Positions 18,590 through 60,574 of a DNA stretch of 64,000 nt are shown in pieces. This DNA comes from Haliotis asinina. Lineage: Eukaryota > Mollusca > Gastropoda > Lepetellida > Haliotidae. Positions within the stretch are counted from its first letter, which is position 1, and the number at the start of each line of letters is the position of its first letter. A program made the position numbers and the translations under genes. Location: assembly GCF_037392515.1 (NCBI RefSeq), contig NC_090280.1, forward strand, positions 61,517,504-61,581,503. Reading direction: 5' to 3'. The notes under the pieces are model-generated. The model ran no database searches. It saw only the letters and a program-made list of their open reading frames with translations, and was not told the DNA's origin.

Positions 18590-19666
18590 TTAGTTTAGAA
18601 CATAAACGAAGATCGAAATGAACAAGATCAGCCCCGATATCGCAAACAACCAAAACAACAGTCGGTCGACTCGTCTGTAGAAGGCTCTTCTTTCCTCCTC
18701 CTCCTTCTGATCTTCCTTGGCAGAAGCACCATTATGCTTCACGTGCAGAAGGACTACGGTACAACCGAGAGAGAGTGCGGATAACAACAGTTGTGCGCCC
18801 AGAAAAAATCCAATTACAGGCATGGTGTGTGAGTTGGAGGGGATGTTGCTGAAGATGTGGGTCAGCATGACGGAGTAGAACAGCAGGAGCGTTGTGGACA
18901 GCCCCATCTTCTCCCCACTCTCCGCCGGCAACAGGAACACGAAGGGGTTGAGTAACGATGTCACTACGGTAGGGGCGACAATGGTGATCAGGTAGTACTC
19001 TTGTCTTCGTTGCATGTATAACGTAACTAAAGCAACACTGTCCCCACTCGTTTCCTGGGTCAGGTTGCAGGTTGATTCGACAAATCTCCACTGGCCGTTG
19101 GGGAAAATATCAGAACCGTCCAGAGCAGTAATCTGAACGAACTGCACCTTGTCTTTACCATGGGAAAGAGCTTCAATGTACAGGGTACATTCCTGACTAT
19201 CAAACGGGTACTTGGTCATGACTAAAGGGCATAAGGACTGCCCAATGTAGTCAGCGATCCAGGACACGCTGCCGTTGGATCTAATGGTCACAAGTTGATC
19301 ATCCTTAAGCAGTCGACGCCTCTCGCTCAAGGCATTCTGGATGGCAACGTCAGGCACCCACATTCTCTTCACAGGAACAATTATGTCTTTGATGCCACCA
19401 AACATATCTTCTTTCCACGACAAACTGACATCAGTCCATGACAACGTCAACTGAAGATCGGTGGAGAGGATCTCGTGGATTTCATTAATCCCAATGATAT
19501 AGTTCATCTCGGCGTGGATGGAGACATTGACCGGCTGACCAAAAGTGTCACTTGGGAATACGTCACTACTGTAATTTGCGAACACATACTCATGAAGTTC
19601 CTTCTCATGGCGATAGCCATAAGCCTCCACAAGTAAAACACAGAACAATAATACTTTGCGTCTCAT
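18590..19666 (-). CDS. Intronless Cys-loop ligand-gated channel subunit, diverged
   Basis: One open frame, 358 aa from the ATG at 19666. An in-frame start lies 52 codons upstream (19822), but the M at 19666 begins a typical signal peptide (MRRKVLLFCVLLVEAYG) that aligns with the sister genes. Extracellular domain to about residue 222, Cys-loop C146-C160 with the 13-residue spacing and Y-P-F-D inside, four membrane segments near 225-247, 253-274, 285-308 and 334-356. The pore start is S-G-E-K, as in cation-selective nicotinic receptors, with L at 9'. The loop B tryptophan kept in the other three genes is replaced (IEALSHGKD), and loop C has one cysteine, not a vicinal pair. The M3-M4 loop is only about 25 residues and very acidic/basic (KEDQKEEEERR). 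Ligand unknown. It is the most diverged copy and lies 20 kb from the main cluster. Confidence 0.92.
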   Translation of the reverse strand: MRRKVLLFCVLLVEAYGYRHEKELHEYVFANYSSDVFPSDTFGQPVNVSIHAEMNYIIGINEIHEILSTDLQLTLSWTDVSLSWKEDMFGGIKDIIVPVKRMWVPDVAIQNALSERRRLLKDDQLVTIRSNGSVSWIADYIGQSLCPLVMTKYPFDSQECTLYIEALSHGKDKVQFVQITALDGSDIFPNGQWRFVESTCNLTQETSGDSVALVTLYMQRRQEYYLITIVAPTVVTSLLNPFVFLLPAESGEKMGLSTTLLLFYSVMLTHIFSNIPSNSHTMPVIGFFLGAQLLLSALSLGCTVVLLHVKHNGASAKEDQKEEEERRAFYRRVDRLLFWLFAISGLILFISIFVYVLN

Positions 19667-19798
19667 CTCGTCCAGTTCCAACGCACGAAAGAGAATCCAA
19701 TGAACTACTGATGGCAATGAGATCGATATAGGTGATGGGGAGTACAATTGCTGTACAAATATCAACTGGGAGGGGCTTTTAGTCGCGTATCGTGTGAT

Positions 19799-19809
19799 TG
19801 TATATATTT
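19799..19809 (-). promoter_or_regulatory. Candidate TATA element of the 19666 receptor gene
   Basis: On the - strand the sequence reads AAATATATAC about 135 bp before the ATG, close to the distance of the TATA-like elements in the 43337 and 59486 genes. Position only; no transcript evidence. Confidence 0.4.
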
Positions 19810-19829
19810 CTTTTCCATTCAAACTTCAC

Positions 19830-22069
19830 AGCTTGAAAAGCTTCGAACAAGTATTTGCATAATTCATATTTGATTTCTTCGTCACCTGATCGATTGGAGA
19901 GTTCAAACAAATCTTTCGAAATGTTAAATGGCTTTAGTATGTCAATACAATCCGTCTGTGAAATGCAGGTGCATGAAATCTATGTCGGTAATGTGTGGAC
20001 AGTAAGGACCATTGAATTTACCGATTGTACCATACTGTAAACATACTGCCTGAGCTAGAGAGTTGTTTACCATACATACAATCTGGTATTGTATTCATAA
20101 ATCTTGACTTTTGTTCCATTGCCACGTGACGTCTCACTGTTCACTGGCATTTGGTAATTATGGACAGTGGGGATTTTGGATTGGAACTTGTTCACTGCAG
20201 GTGATACCAGCCACAATGAGCGGCCCAAGAGAAAGGGCACCAGTCTGGTAGTCATGCAGGGTGATAATGTGTGTCCGTTTTGTTACACAATGTCGGGTAT
20301 ATCCGTTTTGGGAGGTACATAAATACCGATCTGGTATGTGTTTGATTTCAAAATACAAGGCGATCAGGTACATCCGTTTTGGAAACAAATGGGGATGGGG
20401 TACATCCGTTTTGCTACACATTGCCGATCTTTTATATCCGTTTTCGCATAATAATGTCGATTTTGCATATACGTTTTGCAAGATAAGTGAATGTCTGGAT
20501 AGGGTGTATCCGTTTCAGGAGGTACATGTGTATGAATATCCGCTTTGTGAAGCATGTAAATGCCGAAAGGGCATATCCGTTTTGCGAGGTACAATGTATG
20601 TACATACCGATAGGGCACGTGAGTGTTTTGGGAAAGCAATGATGTGTACACTTAGAGTTTGTAAGAGTTAATAACCTTGGCCATGGCCATGGTAAATCCG
20701 AAAAATAAAATAACTTGTATGGGATAACCGGATAATAATCTGGTCAATGTAACTTTCGGAGAGTAGGTAAATATATAAATAATGTATTGACACCTATAGA
20801 CGGCATGTTTAGAATCACGAAAATATCTGTGGAATAGGTGGCAAGTGTGTACCTAGAGAGTAACCAACATCGTTACGATCGAGAAGACTCTGCTAGGATT
20901 TATTGGTCAACAAAGGGGTGACAACTAGTCTATGAGAAGAACATATTTTACAGAAAAGAGCTCATAGTACAAAACTACAATATATTGACATGGAACCCTT
21001 ATACTTTCTTGCCACATTTTCTAGACTCGTGTGGGCTTTCTTAGATACATTTGCTCCAAGGCGTGTGGACAAAGGGCAGAGGTGCAGAAACTGTAACCAA
21101 GTCCTCTGTCATGAGATATTGTGCGGCTACAAACGTACCTAAACAACTTGTATCTGTACAAATAATGTGCATCAATGAATGAGACAAAACTTCGATAAAA
21201 ACCAAACACTTCTGTATGTCCCGCATTTAGCTTCTGCTAATTCCCCCATATCTCAGTTCTGAATCTGTTTATCCTGTTAGAACAGGAAATACTAATATTC
21301 AATACCTGAGCACTTTGAACATACAGCTGGTTGTCATACTATGGAGGAATAACATAATATATCTGAAATATCGGTGATAAACCTAGAAAACTATGATCTG
21401 TTTAGTAGGATGTGCTACTATCCCTTTCAGCTGTGTGAATGGCCGATGGTAGATGAACACGTTATCACAAAATAATTCTGTGTCTTATGCCGTGTGCAAA
21501 GTTCCATCTCGTTCTCAAGTCCTCGATGTATTGATGTAGGACTTAACATGAGTGGACACTTCGTCTGTCTCGAACTCAACACTTAACCCTATATATAATC
21601 TAAACATAAGTTATCTTTATCGAGAGAAGACATTAGAGTTTGGGTTGAAAAAATGCACAAGCTCAGCCCTCCACTTGACACGAACGTCTTTGTCGCCATT
21701 TATCTTTACAGATTATGTAACAGTGTGAGCTGTAATCACGTAGCATCTTAACATTAAACACAACGACGTTTCGAATAAAGATAATACTATGTAGTGTAAA
21801 GGCCCAATTTTGTGAATATTTGAGTTAAGGAGTATTTGAGGCATCTCCTCTGTGGTGTAGATATATAGTGAGCGGTCGTGACACTGTTATTGTAAACTAT
21901 ATATCACCAGGAAGACAGGTGACCCGCTTAACACCAGTGCAATGTTATCGCCTCTCGCCAACCAAACCTTGTACACGACGCCACACATATCATCGGAACA
22001 AACACCAGTTTAGGTCCGACATGGGCATTTGTCAAATGTTTTCGTTTAATGTTGATACTGGATTTTACC
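19830..22069. other. Gene-free stretch apart from a minisatellite
   Basis: No gene was seen. The only clear structure is the CCGTTTTG array at 20260-20600, listed separately. Confidence 0.45.
20260..20600. repeat. Degenerate interspersed TATCCGTTTTG repeat
   Basis: The word (T)ATCCGTTTTG and one-base variants recur about nine times at irregular spacing of roughly 25-65 bp, often followed by GAGGTACAT or a CACATTGCCGAT-like word. It reads as an old minisatellite. Frames stay open on both strands here without any coding evidence. Confidence 0.75.
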
Positions 22070-22135
22070 TCAAATGTGAGTGAGTTTAGTTTTACGCCGC
22101 ACTCAGCCATATTCCAGGTATATGGCAGCAATTGT
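22070..22135 (-). mobile_element. SINE 3' tail fragment
   Basis: GTGAGTGAGTTTAGTTTTAC and GCCGCACTCAGCCATATTCC are the reverse of the shared SINE tail. No head remains. Confidence 0.8.
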
Positions 22136-22284
22136 TTTTGGTGCTAGAAATCACTGTAGGGACAACAGGTAAAATTATTCATAACAGTAATAGCGATTTC
22201 ATAAAAACGTTGTACAAATATTTTTAACATTGCGTTTCTCTTTTCTTTTCTTTTCTTTGACCAGTTTAATTAATTATGTACAGG

Positions 22285-22475
22285 GGTGGGTTAGTGAGTG
22301 TTTTAGCTCTACGCCGCCTTTGGCAATTTTTCAGCCATCCAATGGTACCGGACACCAGACATGGGCTTCACATGCTTTCCTTCTGTTGAAATTCGAACCG
22401 GGTCTTCTACGTTATGAGTGGACGCTTCAACGACTAGGCCACCGAGTACTTGACCATTCTTACTCTATTGGAAGT
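22285..22475 (-). mobile_element. tRNA-derived SINE, family B (antisense)
   Basis: On the - strand: tRNA-like head with GGCCTAGTCGTTGAAGCG and a B box (AAATTCGAACCGGG on +), the CACCAGACATGGGCTTCACA body and an eroded GGCGTAGAGCTAAAACACTC tail. Confidence 0.85.
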
Positions 22476-22825
22476 CAGGCTCTACAGAATACATTATTAT
22501 TAAAACCGTTAGCATTGATACCGTCGTAACTTTTTCTGCTACCTAGTCAGAAAACTAAAAACAATATTAATTGTTGTTGCTGTACGTAGCAATTACCTCC
22601 AACGCGGTTTTAACTGAGTCTCTGTAATGGCAGCATAAGCAATCGAAATATGGAATCCGATCCTGCACAATCAGCCGTCATTGTTGCTGGATCGTGTGAA
22701 ATCGGAGAGAACACTGCCTTGCTTGGAATGAATCCAACAACCGGCATGTTCTTCTTAGCCATGAATCAATGAATGCATGTTGTTTAACGCCGCGTCAGCA
22801 ATATTGCAGCTATTCGCGGCGACAT

Positions 22826-23068
22826 ACCCGTAAAGGCCCGGGTAAGAATTTTGGTCTTCAGTAACCCATACTTGTCGTTAGAGGCGACTAGGGGGATCGG
22901 GTGTTCAGACTCACTGACATGGTTGACACATGTCATCGGTTCCCAATTGTGCAGATCGATGCCCATGCTGTTGATCACTGGATTGTCTGGTCCAGACTCG
23001 ATTATTTACAGACCGCCGCCATATAGCTGGAATAATGCTGAGTGTGGCGTAAAACTAAACTCACTCAC
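22826..23068 (+). mobile_element. SINE family A
   Basis: Starts at ACCCGTAAAGGCCCGGG and runs through CTTGTCGTTAGAGGCGACTA to GAGTGTGGCGTAAAACTAAA and CACTCAC. No clear target site duplication. Confidence 0.88.
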
Positions 23069-23249
23069 TTTCTCTTGTTGACCATGAACAACACGCTGTG
23101 ACGCTTTGGAAACAAAATGATGTGCAGTGAGTATTAGCTCCGTGTATGTTCCCATATCTTTTAAGGTTTACAAGCGTCTTGCCTTTGGATGTTTTTGTCG
23201 GACGGAACTGGCAGAGCAAGTGTGACAAATGTGACACTCGGGTTAGAAC

Positions 23250-23412
23250 TGTCTTCAGGAACCCATGCGTGTGATGCACACGGACGGCTGCAGACTCGTG
23301 TTATCCTGGTCAGTATACAACCAATTACGGGGATGCTCATGATTTCAATCACTGGATTCCATGGTCAAGACTATTTACAGGTAGTTGGCATATGGTTGGA
23401 ATATTGCTGAGT
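23250..23412 (+). mobile_element. Eroded SINE family A
   Basis: Retains CAGGAACCCATGCGTGTG, GGGGATGCTCATGATTTC, an ATCACTGGATT block and TGGTTGGAATATTGCTGAGT. It lacks the ACTC tail. Confidence 0.65.
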
Positions 23413-23617
23413 TCAGTAAACAGACACTGGCAAAAAAAACAACTTTCAGTTGACCCTGGCATATTCAGTGACGGCTGCTTATCAGTATTTTCCTATAATT
23501 ACTGGAAAGGGTTTGATCCAAAATTTTAGGGCTGAAACAAACGAAACCTGATTATTACTTCAACAACGTTAAATAAAACTTAGGGGTTAATGTATTCCGT
23601 ATTTCACCTTTTCAGAC

Positions 23618-23697
23618 AACAGTAATAAAGCTATATACAACGCAAGTACATCACCTACAATAAAGCTATATACAACGCAAGTACATCACCTACAATA
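23618..23697. repeat. 38-bp tandem duplication
   Basis: Two near-perfect copies of a unit beginning AATAAAGCTATATACAACGC and ending ATCACCTACA. Confidence 0.85.
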
Positions 23698-23825
23698 ATA
23701 TGTCCATAATAAATTAACGTCATTTTCCATTCTCGGTCACCTATCAGAGATTTACTGCATCTCGTATGTGACAGGTCCTAGAGTGTGTCATTGCTGACCT
23801 GAAAACTTGAAAACCCCTCAGTTAA

Positions 23826-24165
23826 ATGCGAGTGAGTTAAAACCGTACGTCACATCGACAATATATCAACCCTATAGTGACGAGAATATGATCACAAAGA
23901 CTAAATATATTAAGAATAAGATTTCTGTCATAGATGGACTTAGAATAACTAGATTACCACACTTATAAGTAAAAACTTGTTGAGGTCATTTAAAAGAAAA
24001 CAACAACAGGTTGAAAAAAATGGGCAGCATATCGCCAGCAATTGAGTCTGGACCACCATACTAGGATCCAATTGCCCATGGAAACATAACGTTATTTGCA
24101 CGATATTGGTGTATTCCTTTATGATCATGTTAACGACAGTGCCATTTGTGTGCAGCGTCTCTTTT
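23826..24165 (-). mobile_element. Antisense LINE 3' UTR fragment (Nimb/I type)
   Basis: GAGTGAGTTAAAACCGTACG, an ATCGACAATATATCAACCC-like block, ATAGATGGACTTAGAATAAC and ATACTAGGATCCAATTGCCC follow the order of the reversed LINE 3' UTR. Confidence 0.7.
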
Positions 24166-24599
24166 CAGATCATATAAATCTACATCCATACCGTTCCTTC
24201 TGACACCCAATGTAAATAATTTTCTGTAGCTGTAATAAATAAACATACCGTATTAATAGGCTTTGAACTATTAAATCGAATTTCACAAATTTGACACAAT
24301 TAAGGGCGGACCACCTGATTTCCAAGAGTAACGTGTGTAAAAAATAGTGTAAGAAATCGTCAACGTCCATCTGCTGGAACCCCGAAAGACTCAACCTCAA
24401 TAGGCCCAAACTCTTCAATACAAGGTGTTATGTGACCCAAGCGATAAGCCTTAACGAAGAAATATGAGAATGAGAAATGCATGACATGTTTATAAATGTT
24501 CATTTCAACTTGTCCATTTCAAGAGGTCTTATAGTGAAAGTCAATGTGTTGTATCCTTGGAAAAGGTTATTCACTTCTCATGCCCCGCTTACTCGGGTT

Positions 24600-24950: not shown

Positions 24951-25256
24951 GCCAGTCTTGTCCCGTTTGTGTGTACGAAAACTTCAATCACAGTACATAC
25001 ATATTTGCCATCATTTTTAATTGTACAGTCTTTATACATTCTGGACTACAATAGTGTACGCATAATGGCTGGCAGCTAAAGGAATGGCTAAATCTAGCTG
25101 GGGAACCGTGTGGGAAGTATTGTAAATTCCCGCAGTCCCTGGTACGGTGGCCAAACGTACATCGCCAACGATCTCTTGCCACCGTTTTTCTCTCCTGTAT
25201 CGTTAATCGGTGTTATGTTTTATATGTATTGAATTGAGAATTGTTCAGTGACGATA

Positions 25257-25523: not shown

Positions 25524-25529
25524 CGATAT

Positions 25530-27149: not shown

Positions 27150-27745
27150 CAGTAGGTCACATTGATGTAAGCTGTAGAACGTGAAGACACCAGATGGTCA
27201 CGTCCTATGTAGGTTGTAGAACGTGAAGACACCAGTTGGTCTCGTCCTATGTAGGTTGTAGAACGTGAAGACACCAGATGGTCTCGTCCTATGTAGGTTG
27301 TAGAACGTGAAGACACCAGATAGTCACGTCCTATGTAGGTTGTAGAACGTGAAGACACCAGTTGGTCTCGTCCTATGTAGGTTGTAGAACGTGGAGACAC
27401 CAGATGGTCACGTCCTATGTAGGTTGTAGAAAGTGAAGACACCAGATAGTCACGTCCTATGTAGGTTGTAGAACGTGAAGACACCAGATGGTCACGTCCT
27501 ATGTAGGTTGTAGAACGTGAAGACACCAGATGGTCACGTCCTATGTAGGTTGTAGAACGTGAAGACACCAGATGGTCACGTCCTATGTAGGTTGTAGAAC
27601 GTGAAGACACCAGTTGGTCTCGTCCTATGTAGGTTGTAGAACGTGAAGACATCAGATAGTCACGTTGTCTTTGGGTTGAAGAACGTGAAGACACAAGATG
27701 GTCAGGTTGTCTTTATGTTGTAGAACGTGAAGACAACAGTTGGTC
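27150..27745. repeat. 42-bp minisatellite, about 14 units
   Basis: The unit contains CCTATGTAGGTTGTAGAACG, then TGAAGACACCAG and a variable part that is AGATGGTCACGT, AGTTGGTCTCGT, AGATGGTCTCGT or AGATAGTCACGT. The last two to three units are degenerate (GTTGTCTTTGGGTTG, GTTGTCTTTATGTTG). Since 42 is a multiple of three, one - strand frame stays open for 221 codons as a 14-residue repeat (SSRSTTYIGRDHLV). I see no start context, splice signal or conserved flank that supports a protein. Confidence 0.93.
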
Positions 27746-27899
27746 ACATTGTAAAACGTGAACGTGCCAAAACGTGACGTCGTCATGCCGTATTGCAATT
27801 GCAGTAACATTTAATGATGCACTCATGTAGACACACTAAGAAGTAATATGATATAATCTGTTGCAACAGTGTAGACCACATATCAGAACATAATATTTC

Positions 27900-30832: not shown

Positions 30833-33800
30833 ATGCCTTCTACAGGGTCTCTCCTTGCCGCTCCAGACGGTGGCTCAGCTCGCAAGGGACCTTCCAGCTT
30901 CTGGTCGTCATGGCGGGAAACATTGGTGGTGTCGGCATCGTTCATGTCGGCGTACACCGCCTACCTAGCTCTACAGAGTCTGCAGAGCAGTCTCAACCAG
31001 GAACAAGGACTGGGGGTAGTGTCGCTGGCATGTCTGTACGGGACAATCATCCTATCCGGTATACTCACACCGCCTTTTATAAAGCTTGTGGGACCCAAGT
31101 GGACCCTAGTGGTGGCGTGGGTGTGTCACAGTGTGTATACAGCCAGCAACTTCTACCCCACGTGGGCCACACTCATCCCTGCGTCCATCGTACTCGGGGC
31201 CATAGCCGGGCCAATGTGGACGGCCCAGGGATTATACATCACCACCAACGGAGAACGTATTTCCAAAACAACTGGACAGAAACTTCACAGCATCTTGTCC
31301 AAACTGAACGGTGTGTTCTTCATGTGTTACGAATCTACTCAAATCACGGGCAACCTGATCTCTTCTCTTGTTCTCAAGCAAGGTTCCTACGCAGACACCA
31401 ACACAACCAGATGGTGTGGCGCAGACAACTGCCCAACTGCCGGCAATGGTACAGAGATAGCGGAGCCAGAACCGCAAATAGTGAACATTCTGCTTGGGGT
31501 CTTCCTGTTGTGTGATCTTATCGGGTTGGCTCTGACGGTGTGTCTGTTGCCACCTCTTCATAACACCCAACCTGAGGGAAAGAGCATAGAACAGCCAGGG
31601 TTAGGGAAAACGCTCGTGTCTTGGTGCACAGCTCTCTCAGACCCTAAACTCATCTGTCTGGTTCCTTTCTTCTTGTCCTGTGCTATGAGTCAAGGGATTT
31701 TATTTGCAGATTTTACAAAGGTAACAAACAATATATATCATGCCTTCTACCTCACTGACCAAACAATGTATTGCCACTACGAATATTTGCATATTTAATG
31801 AAGGAAATCAGTTCTGTTTTTGCATTGCTTCCGATGACGTGTTATGCTTTATCGGACGTTACACCTATATAAAGGTTTCTATGCAGAAGAGTCCCTAGAC
31901 GGTTGGATTTTAACACTGACGCTGTTGAATCGGTTCCTGAAGATGGTAACGAGGGCAAGGGCCCATGCGGCAGCTTCAATGTTCCAGTAGACAAAGTGAC
32001 CTCATGGATAGCATCCTTCCACAGGACTTTTGAAATTTTTTTTTGTTACGCAGAACACGAAATGTCCCGTGACTCATTTGTCTGTCTGTTAAACAGTGGC
32101 CTGGTGTCTCAGTTGGGTAGCACAGTGACAATATCGACAAACTCCAATCCCCGGCCTTAAGAAATATCTGCTACAAACATAGTCGATTGTAATATTGCAA
32201 CTCTATCAAAAGCACATGTTATGAGTCATTATGAAACAGAGATGATAATAGGTACTAGCCAAAGGTCCACACATTTGGCTTTCGTCATAAATATATGTTT
32301 CTCCCCTATAAAATAACGGTAAAATCCAACAGGGGAACTGATTCAGACACTGTTTTTGTCACTGATGCGTCAGATATTTACTTTTCCTTCACGTATCTAC
32401 CATAAACCTTTTATGAAGTTTTATTGAGGTCTGGAATGTTGTAACTTTGATACAACTTCGCAGCAGAAATGAAATGTTGACTGTATGAGAACGGTACTCG
32501 TACATAATCATGTGTCACTGTAATAGTGCATCATTCTTGAACGCTAAAATGGGTACCCGAGAGGATGTGCTGGCAATGTGAGTGTTTAGAGCATTGCACG
32601 TAACAGGCACCATGACTGCATGGTCCCCAGGGGAGTTGAAAACGTGTCTTGAAGTATGATAGTGCCCCATGACCGGCGATAGTACTGTACGTAGCACCGT
32701 GAGCAGGTAACGGGCCTGGATGTGAACGCCATATAACCGAACTGTTACTATTTCCATACTTCTTTGGGCTGTTAAGCATGTCGTCAGTTTTGTCCAGCAG
32801 CAAGTATTGAAGAACGATCCACCTTTCTCTCTTTGCAGGCCTTCATTAGTTGTTCTCTTGGCGTCTCCATGGTTGGTTTCATCATGGCTGCACACGGAGC
32901 CATCACGTCAATAATCGCCATCATATCCAGTCAAATAGCCAAGTACACGGGGCGATATGGGCTGTTTGCTATTGCATTCACGTGTAACATATCAATGGTA
33001 CTGACGTTGCTTCTGTGGAAACCGCAAAGCGACAACATTGCACCTTTTTTCGCCATTCCTATAATATGGGGAGTAGCGGTTGGAATATTCCATGCCCAGT
33101 TTAATTGTAAGTATATAGTATTTTGTAACGTTAAATTTTGCAAAACATAATAATGAACAAAGTGTTAGTGATGAAAGGCGAATTTCGATGCAAAGGATTC
33201 AAGGAGTTAACCGTCTCCATGCGAAATTTAGCCCAAAGTCATATTCATCAGATCAGCCTAAAGTTTAATAGAACTTGACCTTGACGTAAATATACAGTTG
33301 ATTTCATCATCCCATTGAAACAACCATGCATCACTTTCATGGAGTAAACCATCATGCGACCAGTGAGTGTGTGAGTTAAGATCTATACTGCAGCCGTATC
33401 GTGTCCAAAACAAGATATACATTAATAATAAAGTGACCCGTGAAGGCCCGGGGCAGAGTAGGCTTTAGCAACCCATGCTTGCCATAAAGGCGACTATGCT
33501 TGTCGTAAGAGGCGACTAACCGGATCTCGTTGTCAGGCTCGCTGACTTGGTTAACACGTCATCGGTTCCCAATTGCGCAGATCGACGCTCATGCTGCTGA
33601 TCACTGGATTTTCTGGTTCAGACTCGATTATTTACAGACCGCCGCCATATAGCTTGAATATTGCTGAGTGGGGCGTAAAACTAAACTCATTCACTAATAA
33701 TAAAGGTATCTAACAAAGTCTGCCGACAAAGGGCAGTAAAAAATAGATTATCATAGAGAATTAAAGGTAGCAAGTGAGTGAGTGAGTTAAAATTTGAGCA

Positions 33801-40050: not shown

Positions 40051-41131
40051 ATGTTACCATTCATCGTTGGAATTTACCGTGCTCTTATCTGCGTTGAAGG
40101 AAGCAGCATGGAAGCATCATTACATGGACATATTTTCAGCAACTATAACAACCATGTCCTGCCTGGAGGAGTAGGCGAACCTGTTGATGTGTCTGTGGAG
40201 GTAAGGTTGCTCTACCTCTGATGATGAGAGGAAGATTTTGTCAGTAGGGATGTACTTTATCATAACTTGGGTACATAGAGCCCTGTCGTGGAATGAAACG
40301 AAATTTCCAGGATTGCAAGAAACGTTCGTTCCAGATACACATATATGGACTCCTCCTATTTCCATTATGTCTGCAATAAGGACAAACAGATACCTGTAAG
40401 CAGAAAATTCCCTTGCGAGCATTCAGTCCAACGGGGCTGTAGAATTGAATTCCAACTTGATCGGAAATACGAAATGTCCAATAGACACAACAAGATTCCC
40501 ATTTGACAGTCAAGCATGTATTTTTAGGTTTACGTTGTAGATCCTAGCAAGTATACACACATTGTTAAGTCCAAAGTCATGTCAGATCGTCAATGAAGCA
40601 AAATGGACAATGGGAAATAAATGCCGTAGAAAATAACCTGTTTAAGCACTTGGGTCGACAAAACTATATAGACATCACTCTGAACATCCGCCGAGGAAGG
40701 GAGTATTGATTGGTAAGCATCGTTTTACCTTCAGTTGGAACTTACTGTTTGAACCCCTTTGTGTTCCTGTTACCGGCTGAGAGTGGGGAGAAGGTGGGAT
40801 TGGCCACAACCCTGTTGCTTTTCTATTACGTCATGCTGAGCCACATCTTTGATAGCATCCCGACTACGTCCCTCCCACTATGACCTTATTTGGGATTTTC
40901 GTGGGAGGACAGCTCATGTTGTCAGGTCTATCACTTGTCTGTACAGTGGTTCTTCATAAACTTAGCCGAAACAAGCGAGATGTGGCAGAGGATGCGGACG
41001 AGGCAAAGATTAACTGCTTGATTAGACGAACTACGACTATTTTGTTTTGGGCGTTGGCAATAATTGGAAGTGTGTTTTGTGGAACAGTGATAATTCTAAC
41101 GACTAAGTTCTCACTACATGTACACACATGA
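40051..41131 (+). pseudogene. Cys-loop receptor pseudogene (sister of the 43337 gene)
   Basis: Begins MLPFIVGIYRALICVEGSSM, almost the start of the intact 43337 gene, and follows it to the M3-M4 end (SRNKRDVAED, then a M4-like FWALAIIGSVFCGTVIIL). A frameshift near 40215 is followed by stops, the first near 40397, and more frame changes before M1. The codons for the Cys-loop (GTCCAATAGACACAACAAG) and for G-E-K in M2 are still visible. Upstream and downstream flanks also match those of 43337, so this is a DNA-level tandem duplicate that decayed. Confidence 0.93.
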
Positions 41132-43336: not shown

Positions 43337-44407
43337 ATGTTATCTCTCATCGTTGGAATTTACTGTGGTCTAATCTGTGTTGAAGGAAGTCCCATGGAGG
43401 CATCATTACATCAGCATATTTTCCACAACTACAACAGAAATGTCCTGCCTGGTGGAGTAGACGAAGCTGTGAATGTGTCCGTGGACGTGTGGTTGTCTTC
43501 GCTTCTTGGTTTGGATGAGAAGAATCAGATGCTGTCAGTGGGGATGTATTTTACTGTTAAGTGGGTGGATGAAACCCTATCGTGGAATGAGATGGAATTC
43601 CCAGGTATTCATGAGACTTTTGTTCCAGATACACTGATATGGTTACCTCGACTGGCCATACCATCTGCAGTAAGGGCAAACAGATTTTTAGCTGCAGAAA
43701 ATTACCTTGCTAACATTCAGTCCAACGGGACAGTTGAATGGGTTCCGGACTATACCGGAAATATCCAGTGTCCAATAGACACAACAAGATTCCCATTTGA
43801 CAGTCAAACATGTACTCTTAATTTAGAGATATGGGTATACAAAAAGGAAAATGCACAAATTGTTGAGGCGAAAGCTGATGTTACACGTACAGTAAAACAA
43901 AATGGACAGTGGGAGTTTATTTCAATTGAAAGTAACCTCGTGACAGGTTTTACTGGACAGAAAGATATTAATATCACTCTGAACATACGCCGAAGACGAG
44001 AATATTACTTGGTCAGTGTAGTATTACCTACTGTTGTTACCTCTTGTTTGAACCCCTTCGTATTCCTGTTACCGGCTGAGAGTGGGGAGAAGGTGGGATT
44101 GGCCACGACCCTGATGCTTTTCTATTACGTCATGCTGAGCCACATCTTTGGTAGCATCCCAGCCAATTCCCTCACTATGCCTGCATTTGGGATTTTCGTG
44201 GGAGGACAGCTCATATTGTCAGGTCTGTCAGTTGTCTGTACTGTGGTTCTTCTGAAGCTGAGCCGAAACAAGCGAGATGTTGCCGAGGATGGGAACGAAG
44301 CAAAGATTAACTGCTTGTGGAACCGGATTGAAACTATCTTGTTTTGGACGTTTGCAATAACTGGAATTGTGATATGCGGAACAGTGATGATTCTAATACA
44401 AACGTGA
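43337..44407 (+). CDS. Intronless Cys-loop ligand-gated channel subunit
   Basis: 356 aa in one exon from the ATG at 43337 (MLSLIVGIYCGLICVEG signal peptide, aligned with the 59486 copy). Extracellular domain to about 222 with W76 in loop D, W166 in loop B, Cys-loop C145-C159. M1 about 224-246, M2 251-272, M3 283-307, M4 332-353. The pore start S-G-E-K-V-G-L with L at 9' predicts a cation channel. Loop C (ESNLVTGFTGQKD) has no cysteine, so it is not a canonical acetylcholine alpha subunit. The M3-M4 loop is about 25 residues, where nicotinic subunits usually have around a hundred. Possible ligands and partners are unknown. The pseudogene at 40051 and the gene at 59486 are its nearest relatives in the window. 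Confidence 0.95.
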   Translation: MLSLIVGIYCGLICVEGSPMEASLHQHIFHNYNRNVLPGGVDEAVNVSVDVWLSSLLGLDEKNQMLSVGMYFTVKWVDETLSWNEMEFPGIHETFVPDTLIWLPRLAIPSAVRANRFLAAENYLANIQSNGTVEWVPDYTGNIQCPIDTTRFPFDSQTCTLNLEIWVYKKENAQIVEAKADVTRTVKQNGQWEFISIESNLVTGFTGQKDINITLNIRRRREYYLVSVVLPTVVTSCLNPFVFLLPAESGEKVGLATTLMLFYYVMLSHIFGSIPANSLTMPAFGIFVGGQLILSGLSVVCTVVLLKLSRNKRDVAEDGNEAKINCLWNRIETILFWTFAITGIVICGTVMILIQT

Positions 44408-48756: not shown

Positions 48757-48945
48757 ACCCGTGAAGGTCCCGGGGTGGAATAGGCCTTCAGCAACCCATG
48801 CTTGCCATTAAAGGCGACTCAGCTTGTCGTAAGAGGCGACTAACGGGACCGGGTGGTCAGGCTCGCTGACTTGGTTGACACATGTCATCGGTTCCCAGAT
48901 CGATGCTCATGTTGTTGATCACTGGATTGCCTGGATTAGACTCGC
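48757..48945 (+). mobile_element. SINE family A inserted in LINE ORF1, 3' end deleted
   Basis: ACCCGTGAAGGTCCCGGGG to GGATTAGACTCGC. The TTTACAGACCGCC...GTAAAACTAAAC tail is missing and the LINE resumes directly at the end of the RT region, so the large LINE deletion also removed the SINE tail. Confidence 0.88.
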
Positions 48946-50162
48946 AACTTAAAATTATTAGATTCTGTTCTTCATCAAGGTCTAAGACTTTGTCTTGGGT
49001 CCTTTAGAACCTCTCCTGTTGACAGCCAATTGAAGCCCGATGAACCATCTCTTACACAACGCCGCATAAAATTAACTTTACAATATATAACAAAGCTATA
49101 CTCTAACGAATCTAACCCTGCCTATAAGTGTGTTTTCAATCCTCTCTACGAGGACTTGTACAACAAAAAGGCTTCTCTTGCTCCACCTCTCGGGCACAGA
49201 ATTAAACCATTTCTTTCTTCGGCCGGCATTGAGCGGGAAAACATAGCGCCTTCCCGTCTTCTTTCTTCTCCGCCTTGGCAGTTGGTTAGGCCACAAGTCG
49301 ACCTATCATTAACTACATTTAAAAAATCAGAAACTAGTGAATTACAATACAAACATGAATATAATCAGTTGAAACCTAAATATAGCAATTATAAATCTTT
49401 ATTTACAGATGGGTCTAAGGACGGTGGCGCAGTGGCTTGTGCCACTGTCATTGGATCCAGAAAAATGTCTTCTAGATTACCAGATAATAGTTCTATTTTT
49501 ACAGCAGAAGCTAACGCCATATTAACAGCTCTTAAATATATTCAAAGACATAACATAAACAGTACATAATCTATTCAGACTCTCTTTTGTGCCTTCAGGC
49601 TATTAAAAACCTATCATGTAAACATCCACTTTGAATATAAATTATTGAACTTTATAACTATTTTGCGACTGGCCAATACTACATCGTCTTCTGTTGGTTA
49701 CCCAGCCATGTTGGAATCTCTGGTAACACTTTGGCTGACCTTGCTGCTAAGGCAGCGCTAAACAAATCTGTGACGCCACTTCTTATTCCCTATACTGATC
49801 ATAAAGCTAAGATTAGATCTTACATCCGTGATCTGATGCAGAAGAAGTGGGACACCCAAGTAGGTATCAATAAATTACATGCAATGAAACCATATGTTGG
49901 TTACACCTACTTGGGTTGTCGATCCAGATTTGAAGAGGTCATTATACGACGATGTCGTATTGGCCACACTAGGTATACGCATGAATATCTTTTGAAAGGT
50001 GAGGATCCTCCGTTCTGCATCCCTTGTGATGAAATCATCACGGTCAAGCATGTCTTGCTTGACTGTGTTGAATTTTCCATCACAAGGGACAATTATTTTA
50101 AATCAAGAACTATGAAGGACCTTTTAGTAACGAACGTTCTCATTTACTTATTGCATTTTTAA
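48946..50162 (+). pseudogene. LINE ORF2 C-terminal remnant with RNase H
   Basis: LLDSVLHQGLRLCLGSFRTS marks the end of the RT part. An RNase H domain follows with FTDGSKD (first Asp), FTAEANAIL (Glu), YSDSLLCLQ (second Asp) and SHVGISGNTLADLAAKAAL (last Asp). The frame is interrupted near 49569 and changes again before 49731. The C-terminal region ends with CIPCDEIITVKHVLLDC, a C-x2-C...H...C pattern. Confidence 0.8.
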
Positions 50163-52149: not shown

Positions 52150-53241
52150 TCATTGTTGTATAAGAATGAAAAGTGACCCACAAAAGGCCACTCCCATTAC
52201 AGTAAACACTGAAAACAGTATCGTGTCCAGTCGATGACAAATGTTCTTCCTCTTCCGTTCGCCTTTGGGAACTGTCCCGACAGAGCCATCTTCTGAATGT
52301 CTTTCTCCATAACTACACGTCTTTTTGACAACACAAACTATGCATACAAGGGACACAGCAGACCACACGAGGTGCACACCGATGAACATACCGAATAGTG
52401 GCATTGAGAGCGAGTTGGAGGGGATGCTATCAAAGATGTGAGTCAGTAAGACGGAGTAGAATAGAAGCAGCGATGTCGCCAAGCCCAACTTCTCCCCACT
52501 TTCAGACGGCAATAGGAATACGAATGGGTTGAGACAAGATGCAACCAAGGAGGGTAAGACGATGCTGATCAAGTAGTATTCCCGTCTTCGGCGAATAGAC
52601 AATGCTATTTGGACAACATTATTTTGTCTGTAAAATGAACAAAGGTCAGCCGTCAGTGAAAACATTTCCCACTGTCCATTCAGCATCACCGATGAGCTTG
52701 CATTAACGTTCACGTCGACAATGTTCATCTGGCATGCATCATATACCCATGACTCGATAACTATGTTACATGTTTGATAATCAAAAGGAAATCGTTTCAT
52801 ATCAACGGGGCAGTGCGTTTCACCGAAAAAGTCAGGAATCCAAAAGACAGTTCCATCATGTGCAATCCTTACCAGCTGATCTGCTCTTAGAAGACGACGT
52901 GTCGTCCTCAGCGCATTTGTCATTGCCAGGTCTGGTGTCCAGATTGATTCAGCTGGTGCAAATATCACATCTATTCCAGAAAACATTGATATATTCCAGG
53001 TCAAACCAGGATCAACCCATTTCACGCCCATGTGCAGGTCAGACATTAACATTTGTCTTCTCTCATCCAGACCAATGATAATGTTGAGCTGAACATCTAC
53101 AGTGACGTTGACAACTCCTTTGAACTTTCCAGGTATGGCATTCTTATTGAGGTTTTGGAAAATGTGCTTGTGCACAGCACGTTCCGCAATATCTCCTTTC
53201 ACAGAGGCTAGCAAACGAAGAGCACCTAGTATGAACAACAT
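52150..53241 (-). CDS. Intronless Cys-loop ligand-gated channel subunit
   Basis: 363 aa from the ATG at 53241, which starts a good signal peptide (MLFILGALRLLASVKG). A longer frame to 53319 adds 26 basic/polar residues that do not resemble the sisters. Cys-loop C144-C158 with R-F-P-F-D inside, loop D W75 and loop B W165 (ESWVYDAC). Loop C has a single cysteine (TADLCSFYRQNN). M1 about 223-245, M2 250-271, M3 282-306, M4 338-360. The pore start S-G-E-K-L-G-L suggests a cation channel. The M3-M4 loop is about 30 residues, basic near M4 (KGERKRK). Extra cysteines C170 and C201 in the extracellular domain could pair with each other; that is inference. Confidence 0.94.
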   Translation of the reverse strand: MLFILGALRLLASVKGDIAERAVHKHIFQNLNKNAIPGKFKGVVNVTVDVQLNIIIGLDERRQMLMSDLHMGVKWVDPGLTWNISMFSGIDVIFAPAESIWTPDLAMTNALRTTRRLLRADQLVRIAHDGTVFWIPDFFGETHCPVDMKRFPFDYQTCNIVIESWVYDACQMNIVDVNVNASSSVMLNGQWEMFSLTADLCSFYRQNNVVQIALSIRRRREYYLISIVLPSLVASCLNPFVFLLPSESGEKLGLATSLLLFYSVLLTHIFDSIPSNSLSMPLFGMFIGVHLVWSAVSLVCIVCVVKKTCSYGERHSEDGSVGTVPKGERKRKNICHRLDTILFSVFTVMGVAFCGSLFILIQQ

Positions 53242-53319
53242 CTTCTTCTGGAGGACGAGATGCTGTTGAATGTGTCTTCTTCTTGTGATGCAAGACTGAG
53301 ATGTGTGGTAATACATCAC

Positions 53320-55127: not shown

Positions 55128-55141
55128 CTCCTGATAGAACT

Positions 55142-55409
55142 GACCCATGAAGGCCCCGGAGTAGAAAAGGCCTTCAGCAACACATGCTTGCCACAGAAGG
55201 TGACTATGTTTGTTGTAAGAGGCGACTGATGACATCGGGTGATCAGACTCGCTGACTTGGTTGACATATGTCATCAGTTTCCACTTGCGCAGATCGACGC
55301 TCATGTTGTTGATCAATGGATTGTCTGGTCCAGACTCGATTATTTACAGCCTGCCGCCATATAGCTGAAATATTGCTTAGTGTGGCGTACAACTAAACTC
55401 ATTAACTCA
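55142..55409 (+). mobile_element. SINE family A with a 14-bp target site duplication
   Basis: Body from ACCCATGAAGGCCCCGG to GAAATATTGCTTAGTGTGGC. CTCCTGATAGAACT flanks it at 55128-55141 and 55410-55423. The tail is short. Confidence 0.92.
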
Positions 55410-55720
55410 CTCCTGATAGAACTAGTCATGGATCAACTCCCTGGCAACGCTGCAGCCCTGGACCTTGATATAATTAACTCTTGAGGTCCCGAGAAGAAGG
55501 CATAGATGACCACGTCGTCATTGGGATTGATCATGGCTGCAAGCTGACAGAAGGATGTTACATGGGCACTACATCAGACTCACGAATGAACTGGGAATTG
55601 AGAATGAACGAGTTAAGGGTTAGGCCAGAATCTATTTAAGAACTACTTCAGAGCATCGTACCAAGACTCAATGTGTTTTTCTTCCATCGCATGACTCTTC
55701 ACTCTTTGGGTGCTCGGATG

Positions 55721-55818
55721 GTTTGGCTCAGTTTCAGAAGAACTGCAGTTGAGAAGATTGACGGAAATGACAATATGAGCTGTCCTTTATTGAAAATACC
55801 AAATACGGCCAAAGTGAA
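55721..55818 (-). pseudogene. Cys-loop receptor relic, M3 region
   Basis: On + the text reads TTTCAGAAGAACTGCAGTTG, TGACAATATGAGCTGTCCT and AAATACGGCCAAAGTGA, the reverse of the M3 coding region in intact genes (AGGACAGCTCATATTGTCAG). It is a separate copy from the pseudogene at 55978, which lacks the AGCTGTCCT part. Confidence 0.8.
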
Positions 55819-55977
55819 GAAACTATCGAGCAGGAAGTAGAGTACAGATTCTTAGAATCATTCACACACATGGAAAGCCATTCATCTTATTATTAGCTGA
55901 AACTTTAAATAGACATCTGTCCAATACAATGGATACAAATACCAACGGCAACTGTCCATCAGTGCATTACATAGTCA

Positions 55978-56915
55978 TCATGCTTGCATTAGAATTAACA
56001 CTGTTCCACAAAGTACAATATTAATGTTATTGCAAACAGTTTTAGTTCGTCTCCTGAGGTTGTTAATGTGTGGTTTGTTACCGTCCGTTGACACAGCTTC
56101 AGAAGAACTACAGTTAAGGTAATTGACAGACCTGACAATAAAAATCCCGAATACGGGCATAGTGAGGGAATTGGTCGGGATGCTACCAAAGACGTGACTC
56201 AGCATGACGTAATAGAAAAGCAACCGGCGCATCCCACCTTCTCACCACTCTCAGTCGGCAACAGAAACACAAAGGGGTTCAGACATGTGGCTACAACAGG
56301 ATGTAATACGGTGCTTACCAAGTAATACTTCCACCGTCGAAGGATGTCCAGAGCGATATCAGTAGCTTTCCGACTTTTCTTTCGGAGAATACATTCTATG
56401 TTAATATTCACGCCAGTGTTCATATTGTACTATGGGAGGTCACCAATTTTGGCATGATTCCTTTCGATTAACCATATCTCAACCTCGATAGAACTTGTTT
56501 AACTGTCAGGTGGGAATCTTGTGCCTATTGCGTAGTGGAATCCATGTTACGGTTCTGTTGATTTGATGTTAGCAAAGTAAATCTCAGCGGTCAGGAATAG
56601 GTTTTTACTGAACACTGAAGGCATGGCCCTTTTGGGTAAACCATAATTATGTTTAAAAGTCTCACAAATATATGGGAATTCCGTTTCATTCCACGACAGG
56701 GCTTCATCCGTGCACATAACAAGTTATATACATCCCTACTCATAGTATCTTCTCATTTAAACCAAGGAGCGAGGACAACCTGATGTTCACAGATACATCT
56801 ACAGGTTCAGCTAATCCTCCAGGCAGGACATGTTTGTTGAAAATATTCTGGTGTAATGATGCTTTCATGCTGCTTCAATCAACACAGATAAGACCACAGT
56901 AAATTCCCATGATGA
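55978..56915 (-). pseudogene. Cys-loop receptor pseudogene
   Basis: Read on the - strand: GIYCGLICVD then a stop, SSMKASLHQNIFNKHVLPGG, LRRWKYYLVSTVLHPVVATC, PFVFLLPTESGEKVG, a frame change within M2, LFYYVMLSHVFGSIPTNSLT, M3 with a short deletion, and a M4 remnant ending CGTVLILMQA. Several stops and frame changes lie in the extracellular part and the Cys-loop cysteines are not readable. Closest in wording to the 43337 and 59486 genes. Confidence 0.92.
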
Positions 56916-58034
56916 GAAACAAGTGTGTTGATCGACTCCGTTAGGGACAAATGTGAATGGAATGACGGTTGATACACGCCGCTGGTTCGAACCATTTTAA
57001 AATTACGTGTAGAAACCAGGCATCTCCATATATTCTCACTGATTTCGTAACGCCACCAGGTGATGTAGTACTGCACACAGAGTATACTGTGTACCATGAG
57101 AAACAAATGTTCATCAACTGGTGAGTTAGGTAGTGTGTTAGAACTGTGATCACTATCCTCTATAAGGGGTGAACAAACACACTGACGGCTACTGATAACA
57201 TCAGGTCGGCTTCTATATCTGATATTAAAATGCTTGCTAATGCCAGTGGTTGACAGGCAGCCAGCATGTATTACGACTTACTTAACTTGTATGTTTTGTT
57301 AAATATTTGATTGCTGTCACAGCAATGCAGTGCGTTACTGAATAATCAGACTACGATTGTGGCTGAGTGATCTGTAGATTGCATTAGACGCCACTTTGAA
57401 CAGTAGGGGCATCACGGTACCTCAGCTTCGTAAGGTCGGAATGTCGGGTGCCACCAGTAGCACAGTGCATTCTTACCCCTTTGCGCAATACCTGATGTCA
57501 TCACTCCAGAAATACGATGACGGGGGACACCAGAAGTGGGCTTCATACATTCTACCCATGTTGAGAATTGAAGCTGGGTCTTCGTCGTGACGAGCGGATG
57601 TTTTATCCACTAGTCCACTCATGTAATTTTCTAAGCTATTTTGACCTTAGGGACTCGTCTCTTCTCCATCGGTAAATAATCAAACCTAGATATGTTTATA
57701 AGCACTTATATCAAGCTCGTCCTTCCTCACATACCGGGTTCCTGCTTATGTAAGGCAATGTACTTATATATACATATATTAGCATGTGAATACTGAGTCT
57801 TCAGGTCAGGCTCCGCAACTTGGCTGATTTGTGCTCTATCGGCAACATGGAACGTTCTTTACTGAACCATGGATTAATTATATCCGAGAAGGAACGTTTC
57901 TCAGACAATGTTTTACGTTGATTACCCAGTGGGTCAGTGTGGTAGTATTTCCAATGTCGTTTCTCAGAGATTGTTTTACGTTAATATCATTATTCCCTAT
58001 ACTGAAGAGGTTACAAATTACACCAGAACGTTAT
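56916..58034. other. Spacer with one antisense SINE
   Basis: 57480-57625 is an antisense family B SINE (ACACCAGAAGTGGGCTTCAT, GAATTGAAGCTGGGTC, TTTATCCACTAGTCCACT). 57896-57990 holds a short direct repeat, TTTCTCAGACAATGTTTTAC and TTTCTCAGAGATTGTTTTAC. No gene seen. Confidence 0.6.
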
Positions 58035-58460
58035 TATATTTTATAGCTTTAGTTTGTAAAGAGCTGAACAATACTTACCTTCTTTTATCAGCGTCAGTTA
58101 GGAGTTCATGTATTTATTATTCATGCAGTAAGACTGTAGTGGACGTACCGATGAAATTGCACAAAATGCACGTACATTTGTATTCAAGTGTTATACAGAT
58201 TCATGCACGTTTTGAATGACATTATTTTCTAACCGCATAGTAGATCTACGAGTGCAGTTTTTTCTTCAACTGGAAACAGTGAACCTCCTGTATTCATTTG
58301 TACCGAATTATCTTTACATTTGATTTGAACCATTGACAACTCCTTCTTGGGACCATTTTTAAAAGTGTCATTCATAACGTGGACCAGAAGAAGTTGTTAC
58401 ATATATTCTGCGTCTTTGAATAGCAGTGGTGATTTGTCTGTCTGAATGTTTGTTTGATTT
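58035..58460 (+). repeat. Duplicated 5' flank (partner of 41585-42065)
   Basis: ATAGCTTTAGTTTGTAAAGA, GACAACTCCTTCTTGGGACC and AAGAAGTTGTTACATATATT with TAGCAGTGGTGATTTGTCTG match the other flank in order. Confidence 0.75.
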
Positions 58461-58494
58461 TTGCTTTATCAAATCTGTAATTCACAGGGTTTAA

Positions 58495-58495
58495 T

Positions 58496-58542
<47 letters not shown>

Positions 58543-58572
58543 TTTTATTTTATTTTATTTTATTTTTATTAT
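58495..58572. repeat. (TTTA)n then (TTTTA)n microsatellite
   Basis: About 50 bp of TTTA tetramers followed by TTTTA pentamers. Confidence 0.93.
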
Positions 58573-58909
58573 TGTTGTTGCTGCTGTGTGGTTTTGTTTG
58601 TTGCTACAGTGAATGAATGAATACGTACAGCTGACTTTCATTTAAAAGCCCTCCTTTTACGCTGCAGGAGTAATCTCAATATGTGTTACTGGATGAAATT
58701 GAGAAAGAAGGAAGTTCTTGTTTCATAAATAATACTTACTGATATTATGACAGAATCATTTACACGCAAATAGTGAATCAGTTACACCGTTTAGTCCAAT
58801 CCTGCAACAAAACCATTTCTTATCATCCTATCAGGAATTGTAATCATTCGTGGAGAATTTCCTTTCGGTGTGTGAAAACATGAAAAGCAAAGTATGTATT
58901 CAGTAAACA

Positions 58910-58976
58910 ATTGGGTTCAAATGGAAATATCCAGTCTCAAATAGTTACATCGAGATTTTCCTTTGACAGTCAGGAG
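58910..58976 (+). pseudogene. Cys-loop receptor relic, Cys-loop region
   Basis: TTGGGTTCAAATGGAAATAT, CCAGTCTCAAATAGTTACAT and CGAGATTTTCCTTTGACAGT correspond to the region from W-V-P to F-P-F-D-S in the intact 43337 gene, with a small deletion and both cysteine codons lost. Only about 70 bp remain, 510 bp before an intact gene. Confidence 0.7.
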
Positions 58977-59340
58977 GGTGTGCCCAAAAAGCCTAGGACT
59001 CGACAAACAGCAGGCATCTCTGCTTTAATGGAAATGAAACAAAGGCACTGACTAGTTTGTAAGCATCAATAGACTGGTGAACATCCATTATGATTAACAA
59101 GTATTGAACACCACATTATGTGTTATCAGGAAGAATTACTGGCTTCCCTTAACGTTTTCTATCATGTTTACATATTGCTGGAACACTTTTTCACATTTCC
59201 CGATTAATTAATGTGACACATGTCTATTTGACCCTCGTCCACAAACTGTTTTCAAACATTCTGGAAACGATGATCGGTGTGTAACAACTGAGCTATTTGC
59301 ATCTACTCAATTCTCCAGAATCAGTCGGCTGGTAGATGGA

Positions 59341-59375
59341 ATCAATGTCGTCATGGCAGCGAGAATATATAAATA
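59341..59375 (+). promoter_or_regulatory. Promoter block with TATA box of the 59486 receptor gene
   Basis: ATCAATGTCGTCATGG then GAGAA and a canonical TATATAAATA at 59366-59375, about 110 bp upstream of the ATG. Conserved with 43180-43214 and 39896-39926. Confidence 0.65.
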
Positions 59376-59485
59376 AAATTCTTTCTCTACACACATGTAC
59401 ATTTGCAGGGTATGTGTTCTGACGCGTTTCGTCTGACGTGCCTTATTTCATTCACTCCTGACCCTGTCGACCACTCCACTGAAAC

Positions 59486-60574
59486 ATGTTATCTTTCATA
59501 GTTGGAATTTACTGTGGTCTTGTCTGTGTTGGTGGTAGCAGCATGGAAGCATCATTACATCAACATATTTTCAAACACTATGACAAAAATGTCCTTCCTG
59601 GTGGAGTAGATGAAGCTGTAAATGTATCTGTGGACACGAAGTTTTCCTACTTAATTGGCTTGGATGAAAAAAATCAAATGCTTTCATTAGTGATGTATTT
59701 CATTATAACGTGGGTGGATAAAGCCCTATCGTGGAATGAGACCGAATTTCCAGGTTTGCAAGAGATTTTTGTTCCAGATACACGCATATGGATTCCTCAA
59801 ATTGCCATTCCTTCTGCAATGAGGACAAACAGATTCCTGACGGCAGAGAATTACCTTGTTAACGTTCAATCCAATGGAACCGTACAATGGGCTCCCGACT
59901 TTATCGGTACTATCCAGTGCCCAATAGATGCAACAGGATTTCCATTTGACAGTCAGACATGTGTAATTGGCATCAGAATGTGGGTATTCAAAAAGAGCCA
60001 AGCAGACATAGTTATGTCGAAAGTTCATGTTAGATCCACCATGAAACAGAATGAACAATGGGAGATAATGTCCGTAGAAAGTAACCTGATTACACTATTG
60101 GGTCGAAGGAACTATATTGATATCACTCTGAACATCCGTCGACGAAGGGAGTATTACATGGTTAGCATCATATTGCCTACCATTGTAACTTCCTGTTTGA
60201 ACCCCTTTGTGTTTCTGTTGCCGGCTGAGAGTGGGGAGAAGGTGGGGTTGGCCACGACGCTGCTGCTTTTCTACTACATCATGCTGAGCCACATCTTTGG
60301 TAACATACCTGCTAATTCCCTCACTATGCCTGTATTTGGGATTTTCATTGGAGGTCAACTCATATTGTCAGGTCTATCAATCGTCTTTACTGTGGTTCTT
60401 TTGAAGCTGAGCCACAACAGCAGAGATGTGACAGCAGACCCGAAGACTAAAGGGTCAAAGGACGGGTATAAAACACAGATCTGGAAACGAATCGAAACTC
60501 TTTTGTTTTGGGTGTTTGCAATCACTGGGGTGGTGTTTTGTGGAACGGTGGTAATTCTTATTCAAACACGATGA
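59486..60574 (+). CDS. Intronless Cys-loop ligand-gated channel subunit
   Basis: 362 aa. Signal peptide MLSFIVGIYCGLVCVGG; Cys-loop C145-C159 (PIDATGFPFDSQT inside); loop D W76 and loop B W166 (RMWVFKK); M1 about 224-246, M2 251-272, M3 283-307, M4 337-359. The pore start S-G-E-K-V-G-L with L at 9' predicts cation selectivity. Loop C (ESNLITLLGRRNY) has no cysteine. The M3-M4 loop is about 30 residues (DPKTKGSKDGYKT), differing clearly from the 43337 gene although the rest aligns without gaps; this loop and loop C are the fast-changing parts. The start ATG is shared by all close copies. Confidence 0.95.
   Translation: MLSFIVGIYCGLVCVGGSSMEASLHQHIFKHYDKNVLPGGVDEAVNVSVDTKFSYLIGLDEKNQMLSLVMYFIITWVDKALSWNETEFPGLQEIFVPDTRIWIPQIAIPSAMRTNRFLTAENYLVNVQSNGTVQWAPDFIGTIQCPIDATGFPFDSQTCVIGIRMWVFKKSQADIVMSKVHVRSTMKQNEQWEIMSVESNLITLLGRRNYIDITLNIRRRREYYMVSIILPTIVTSCLNPFVFLLPAESGEKVGLATTLLLFYYIMLSHIFGNIPANSLTMPVFGIFIGGQLILSGLSIVFTVVLLKLSHNSRDVTADPKTKGSKDGYKTQIWKRIETLLFWVFAITGVVFCGTVVILIQTR

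Follow-up and report, generated by a model that had tools for sequence, protein, structure and literature searches.

What kind of receptor is encoded by a cluster of intronless genes that belong to the nicotinic acetylcholine receptor (nAChR) family and lack the cysteine pair of its alpha subunits, and does such a cluster amount to a system not yet described? This question is raised by a 64-kb stretch of the abalone genome, hereafter the window (C1:61,517,504-61,581,503 of the 1.14-Gb Haliotis asinina assembly), which was analysed together with 20 kb of DNA to its left and 40 kb to its right. Molluscan nAChR expansions are reported to be intronless, tandem and mostly non-alpha (Jiao et al. 2019, PMC6896357). 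In the oyster, 33 of 132 nAChR genes are alpha and 13 of these 33 have complete principal binding sites (PMC6896357). A first-pass annotation of the window had set its genes against this lophotrochozoan background, which agrees with the same source. Literature searches, covering open-licence literature, returned no paper on the H. asinina array. We lean towards the view that the array consists of tandem nicotinic-type channel subunits, so far found only in Haliotis, which are orphans opened by a small molecule other than acetylcholine.

Extent and gene content of the array

The array measures 77 kb, extends past the right edge of the window, and comprises seven intact genes and three long pseudogenes (Table 1). 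Its ten long copies span window positions 18,593 to 95,750 in the order R1 (-), psA (+), R2 (+), R3 (-), psB (-), R4 (+), R5 (-), R6 (-), R7 (-), psC (+). The four intact single-frame genes annotated within the window, R1 to R4, were all recovered, and each matches Pfam PF02931 Neur_chan_LBD (E 7.5e-38 to 2.6e-41) and PF02932 Neur_chan_memb. The local multiplication that had been proposed turned out to be even larger, since three further intact genes and a third long pseudogene lie to the right. Mutual identity among R1-R4 is 41-71%, and their relatedness is not a matter of chance, since tblastn gives E values of 6e-86 or better between all four. For R3, an upstream ATG yields a longer frame of 388 aa, whereas the 363-aa start agrees with the paralogs.

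The coding sequence is uninterrupted in all seven genes; the annotated intronlessness thus stands for the coding part, and an intron in the 5' untranslated region could still exist. With Pfam domains in 4/4 of the genes searched and both Cys-loop cysteines in 7/7, the array belongs to the Cys-loop ligand-gated channels, and its single-exon coding sequences in tandem place it among the expanded intronless molluscan nAChR-like genes. The structures that AlphaFold predicts for R2 and R1 contain M1-M4, with mean pLDDT of 81.8 and 88.8, respectively.

Recent growth of the array was by tandem duplication of DNA, because R5-R7 have 2.4-3.9 kb in common at 81-94% identity. Older pairs have little common sequence outside the coding part, reaching about 170 bases upstream at most. 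AATAAA is absent within 200 bases downstream of all seven genes. Both long pseudogenes annotated in the window (psA and psB) were borne out by tblastn matches and stops; of the two short relics, the one adjoining psB was upheld, whereas the other candidate is weak. Judged from the sequences, copies of the array are born and die locally.

A cation-type pore and an altered binding site

Glu at -1' (of the G-E-K motif) and Leu at 9' occur in all seven genes, which by sequence assigns them to the nicotinic, cation-type branch; the best solved relatives are nAChR alpha7 for R2 and muscle alpha for R1. The Cys-loop, G-E-K and 9' Leu, as well as the missing vicinal cysteines of loop C, had been noted for the four genes of the window and were found in every one of them. 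Position 2' is Gly in 7/7, whereas among the 72 other Haliotis rows 54 have Ser and 7 have Gly there. The most particular residue of the pore is at 17' of M2, which is His in all seven array genes and in 5/6 relatives from other sources (12 of the 13 known members) and in 0/148 other distinct parsed proteins; these counts leave aside 14 of 175 distinct rows whose pore region resisted parsing, mostly rows already tabulated for features or remote ones.

The loop between M3 and M4 is very short, with 24-32 aa in the seven genes and 24-42 aa in five aligned relatives, compared to a median of 58 (range 25-109) in other Haliotis rows and 152 in Callorhinchus alpha7. Since the other Haliotis rows range down to 25, the short loop is not unique. 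The AlphaFold models turn from M3 to M4 within 5 residues (R2) or 7 residues (R1).

The binding site has lost much of its principal face. The adjacent-cysteine (CC) pair of loop C is absent in 7/7 genes, which are consequently not alpha subunits, and neither the aligned loop A position nor either loop-C position holds a Tyr in any of them. Loop B retains its Trp in 6/7, R1 having Leu instead, whereas the loop D Trp is present in all seven genes. Moreover, the segment running from the beta9 Trp up to the pre-M1 Arg has 27 residues in 7/7, as against a median of 30 (22-32) in the others and 32 in alpha7. At the level of sequence, then, the fold family, the Cys-loop, the cation-type pore motif, the loss of the principal-face tyrosines and CC pair, and the very short M3-M4 loop are established.

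A Haliotis clade at one locus

A whole-genome search with R3 returned eight places scoring at least 243 bits, all of them in the array, and the next place elsewhere reached 164.5 bits; among the 112 of 407 candidates that were scored, the subfamily is thus a single locus. An additional array, at C9:32.7 Mb, was found by that search alone. Among public proteins the nearest kin come from Haliotis, together with P0004, and every member with a named source is from Haliotis; the closest named relative outside the genus is a limpet protein with 30% identity. R1 has close counterparts in H. rubra (P0006, 90% identity) and H. cracherodii (P0007, 78%), whereas R2 and R4 are about equally distant (74-75%) from one H. 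rubra protein, and this difference suggests a stable R1 beside R2-like copies that turn over. The comparison draws on public protein models of the other species, which are incomplete. R3 has its best match among the proteins found in P0004, at 47%.

Two trees recovered the subfamily as a clade. Twelve rows (seven from the array, four from other Haliotis, and P0004) form one clade in a 93-row tree, with SH-aLRT support of 100 and a stem length of 1.16 changes per column. The same clade, with 11 rows after thinning, appears in a 146-row tree under a simpler model with support of 100 and a stem of 1.10. Placement inside a characterised acetylcholine-gated clade, which would have removed the orphan status proposed at first, was not seen in either tree. 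No sister group is claimed because the clade's neighbour changed between the trees, being the C1:91.8 Mb / 58.5 Mb group with support of 93 in one and another group with 29 in the other. The underlying feature alignment omitted repeat copies, the edge-cut L017, three rows shorter than 250 aa, P0001 (a fused model), P0005 (identical to R1), P0011, P0013 and P0020-P0023. The 93-row tree additionally omitted the incomplete L022, and the 146-row tree omitted seven near-duplicate Haliotis rows, P0024, P0025, P0029, P0031, P0034 and proteins outside 340-560 aa. Two gene models, P0001 (H. rufescens) and P0024 (Saccostrea), resemble fusions of two tandem copies with their domains repeated, and automatic annotation may accordingly miscount tandem arrays.

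Variability and selection

Residue states are more numerous in the pocket loops than in the rest of the extracellular domain (ECD) among R2, R4-R7 and two relatives (2.25 vs 1.80, permutation 0.0022), with the loop boundaries set by us in this and all other pocket comparisons. The five most variable sites, in R2 numbering, are 134, 160, 162, 164 and 183, and three of them alternate along the stretch leading to the loop B Trp. Similar patterns recur in other arrays of the genome: the ratio of nonsynonymous to synonymous change (omega) is higher in the ECD than in M1-M3 in 7/8 arrays, and in 7/8 it is higher for the pocket loops than for the remainder of the ECD, with permutation values below 0.05 in four, uncorrected for eight tests. 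Among five of the seven genes (R2, R4, R5, R6 and R7), omega ranges from 0.24 to 0.45 and is mostly about 0.1 in M1-M3; these coding sequences are under purifying selection.

Genome-wide context

A genome search with the ligand-binding domain gave 151 matches, of which 150 are listed (150 of 515 candidates scored). At 132 of the 150 listed places an open frame of at least 340 aa is free of stops, which puts the genome's count of such frames at 132 or more. Of these long frames 121 are grouped into 24 clusters, with gaps of no more than 200 kb, which makes this array one among about two dozen. Large clusters elsewhere hold 13 at C16:20.0 Mb, 12 at C16:48.3 Mb and 12 at C6:12.8 Mb. The DNA was read for 83 of the 150 listed places (7 in the array, 76 elsewhere), and the CC pair is absent from the loop-C stretch in 77 of 79 distinct single-frame Haliotis proteins (7 here, 72 elsewhere). 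Intronless and CC-less genes are therefore the rule among those seen in this genome, and the weight that the first-pass annotation had placed on these two features as something special is not sustained. Its suggestion of an undescribed system holds in part: the 17' His and the separate clade are more particular to this subfamily, whereas intronless, tandem, CC-less expansions have been published for molluscs (PMC6896357) and are common here. In two single-frame relatives, L077:793-2025 and L080:122-1249 (C10:12.15 Mb), F and I stand at the aligned positions of the two Cys-loop cysteines, yet G-E-K is kept.

Feature positions and other features of the window

Besides the array, the window contains a frame resembling UNC-93, a weak match to the major facilitator superfamily (MFS), two tandem repeats and two adjacent open frames, as listed in Table 1. 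Scans of the 64-kb window for tRNA and Rfam families gave no matches.

Table 1. Array members and other features, in window coordinates
Feature	Position	Strand	Description
R1	18590..19666	-	single-frame, intact nAChR-like subunit, 358 aa; M3-M4 loop 25 aa
psA	40051..41107	+	long pseudogene, R2/R4 type; tblastn matches over three frames; stops in each frame
R2	43337..44407	+	single-frame, intact nAChR-like subunit, 356 aa; M3-M4 loop 24 aa
R2 His269 codon CAC	44141..44143	+	M2 17'; His at 17' in all seven array genes
R3	52150..53241	-	single-frame, intact nAChR-like subunit, 363 aa
Short relic	55702..55818	-	M3 region, adjoins psB; tblastn E 4e-5
psB	55984..56922	-	long pseudogene, R2 type; tblastn; stops in all frames of 55702-56922
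Putative short relic	58923..58982	+	Cys-loop region; weak, tblastn E 0.056-0.22
R4	59486..60574	+	single-frame, intact nAChR-like subunit, 362 aa; M3-M4 loop 29 aa
R5	67,094-68,164	-	intact 356-aa frame; outside window
R6	82,295-83,365	-	intact 356-aa frame; outside window
R7	89,577-90,647	-	intact 356-aa frame; outside window
psC	94,915-95,750	+	long pseudogene resembling R3; outside window
110-base tandem repeat	16777-17326		5 copies at 93%; downstream of R1
42-base tandem repeat	27165-27747		13.9 copies; 207-aa frame of 14-aa repeats reads through
UNC-93-like frame	30833-31798	+	between R1 and psA; Pfam E 2.7e-18
MFS match	32776-33147		weak, below cut-off; near UNC-93-like frame
Adjacent open frames	48940-49569, 49641-50162	+	209 and 173 aa stop to stop; no Pfam match at E 0.01

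What the array may encode

If the genes encode orphan channels opened by something other than acetylcholine, their subunits would assemble as homo- or heteropentamers, and the cation pore would open when a small molecule binds at the subunit interface, beneath the shortened loop C. R1 would represent the conserved member, with R2-like copies turning over and varying chiefly in their pocket loops. Candidate tissues for such channels would be central neurons, the sensory epithelium, and the gill or mantle. By analogy, a ring of 17' histidines may confer sensitivity to zinc or protons on the pore.

Several observations weigh against this reading. Three of the ten long copies are dead. The 17' His is not universal among members, as the H. 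rufescens model P0001 has Val at this position in both halves. No positive selection was detected among R2 and R4-R7 over 353 codons, M2a being no better than M1a (likelihood ratio 0.57, p 0.75); the test used our own M0/M1a/M2a code, unchecked against a standard program, and with five sequences has low power. The pocket variability may therefore reflect relaxed constraint only. For R1 and R3 omega is not obtainable, as synonymous divergence (dS) is saturated. Additionally, gene conversion between R6 and R7 is likely, since the two form a mosaic with 80-83% identity in three of the four leading 150-base bins, 96-100% from base 600, and 200 of 200 bases identical after the stop. Such conversion exaggerates the contrast between ECD and transmembrane domain in raw differences, and with such a mosaic the codon test's assumption of one tree no longer holds. 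The contrast persists, however, where dS is even: R2 and R4 have dS of 0.67 and 0.62 and omega of 0.31 and 0.10 in the two parts, a threefold difference. Finally, the retained loop D Trp leaves open a role as complementary subunits in acetylcholine receptors.

That last point leads to the alternative that the genes encode structural subunits of the non-alpha (beta-like) kind for ordinary acetylcholine receptors, which would contribute the complementary face only, with the alphas encoded elsewhere. Vertebrate beta subunits likewise keep the loop D Trp and lack the principal-face CC pair, and NCBI names one H. rubra relative 'acetylcholine receptor subunit beta-like', although others are called alpha-like and automatic names prove nothing. 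We nevertheless regard a beta-like role as unlikely: the principal-face loop B Trp survives in all genes except R1, the loop D Trp is also found in 70 of the 72 other Haliotis rows and may be structural, and turnover of copies within Haliotis with variable pocket loops would be unusual for an obligate partner. It is far less probable that the array is functionless retrogene debris. The pseudogenes could be taken that way, as could the fact that among the R1-R4 proteins public protein searches returned R1 only (P0005), but seven frames are intact, five of them are constrained, most clearly in M1-M3, and R1 is closely matched in two other species.

A special case of our favoured reading, namely of orphan subunits with a ligand other than acetylcholine, is that they serve as chemoreceptors of the periphery, which gastropods would have evolved independently as a counterpart to the chemotactile receptors (CRs) of cephalopods. 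The intronless, tandem, CC-less organisation and the variable pocket loops here and in other arrays fit this idea; cephalopod CRs are intronless nAChR derivatives activated by hydrophobic molecules (PMC11526382), and in the bivalves studied nAChR expression is highest in the gill (PMC6896357). The idea, which the first-pass annotation had raised in general form, is nonetheless doubtful. Octopus CR pocket sites are reported to be under strong diversifying selection (PMC11526382), unlike anything detected here, gene conversion blurs the picture of pocket variability, and expression of the bivalve expansions extends to eggs, larvae and gonad and occurs upon infection as well, so that other uses are as likely (PMC6896357). 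A more speculative proposal, which we put forward only tentatively and consider improbable at present, is that the intronless nAChR-like arrays of abalone form a large ionotropic contact-chemosensory repertoire independent of cephalopod CRs, to which this subfamily adds a zinc- or proton-sensitive 17' His gate. If sensory, this gastropod nAChR-derived repertoire would exceed the up to 26 octopus chemotactile receptors (PMC11526382). The array offers a small testable set: R1 with its close kin in two species, the other six intact genes, the mapped variability of the pocket and, as one sharp prediction about the pore, the 17' His.

Comparison with known systems

GABA-A receptors are anion channels. 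Their beta3 subunit shares the 17' His (His267) with the abalone genes, and three H267 bind Zn2+ there, blocking the pore (PMC11490885). For the abalone channels the zinc analogy is no more than a prediction.

Alpo4 of Alvinella is likewise a lophotrochozoan orphan of nAChR type with a cation-type pore, for which no agonist is reported to have been found (PMC10338036). Unlike in the array genes, its intracellular domain spans about 105 residues (308-412), and it carries 2' Thr, 16' Met and 20' Asp (PMC10338036); neither R1 nor R2 has it within its 60 best solved matches.

The cephalopod receptors CRT1 and CRB1 resemble the array in being nAChR-derived, intronless cation channels that do not use acetylcholine (PMC11526382). 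Possible kinship to CRs was explored through a broad protein search and through PDB rankings (best 60 each) of R1, R2, P0008, P0014, two profiles and a further two Haliotis proteins. The 60 top-ranked solved sequences for R1, for R2 and for the 40-row profile did not include CRT1; across all rankings it was listed only for the limpet protein P0008, at places 59 and 60, so that within this scope no particular similarity in sequence to CRs emerged.

There is also a likeness to the molluscan families of Jiao et al. (2019), which are intronless or intron-poor, tandem, lineage-specific, mostly non-alpha and of orphan ligand (PMC6896357). The intronless tandem type of molluscan expansion is already known. 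Haliotis has 0 occurrences in the main text of that paper, and its available parts describe neither the 17' His nor the very short M3-M4 loop nor the abalone clade (PMC6896357).
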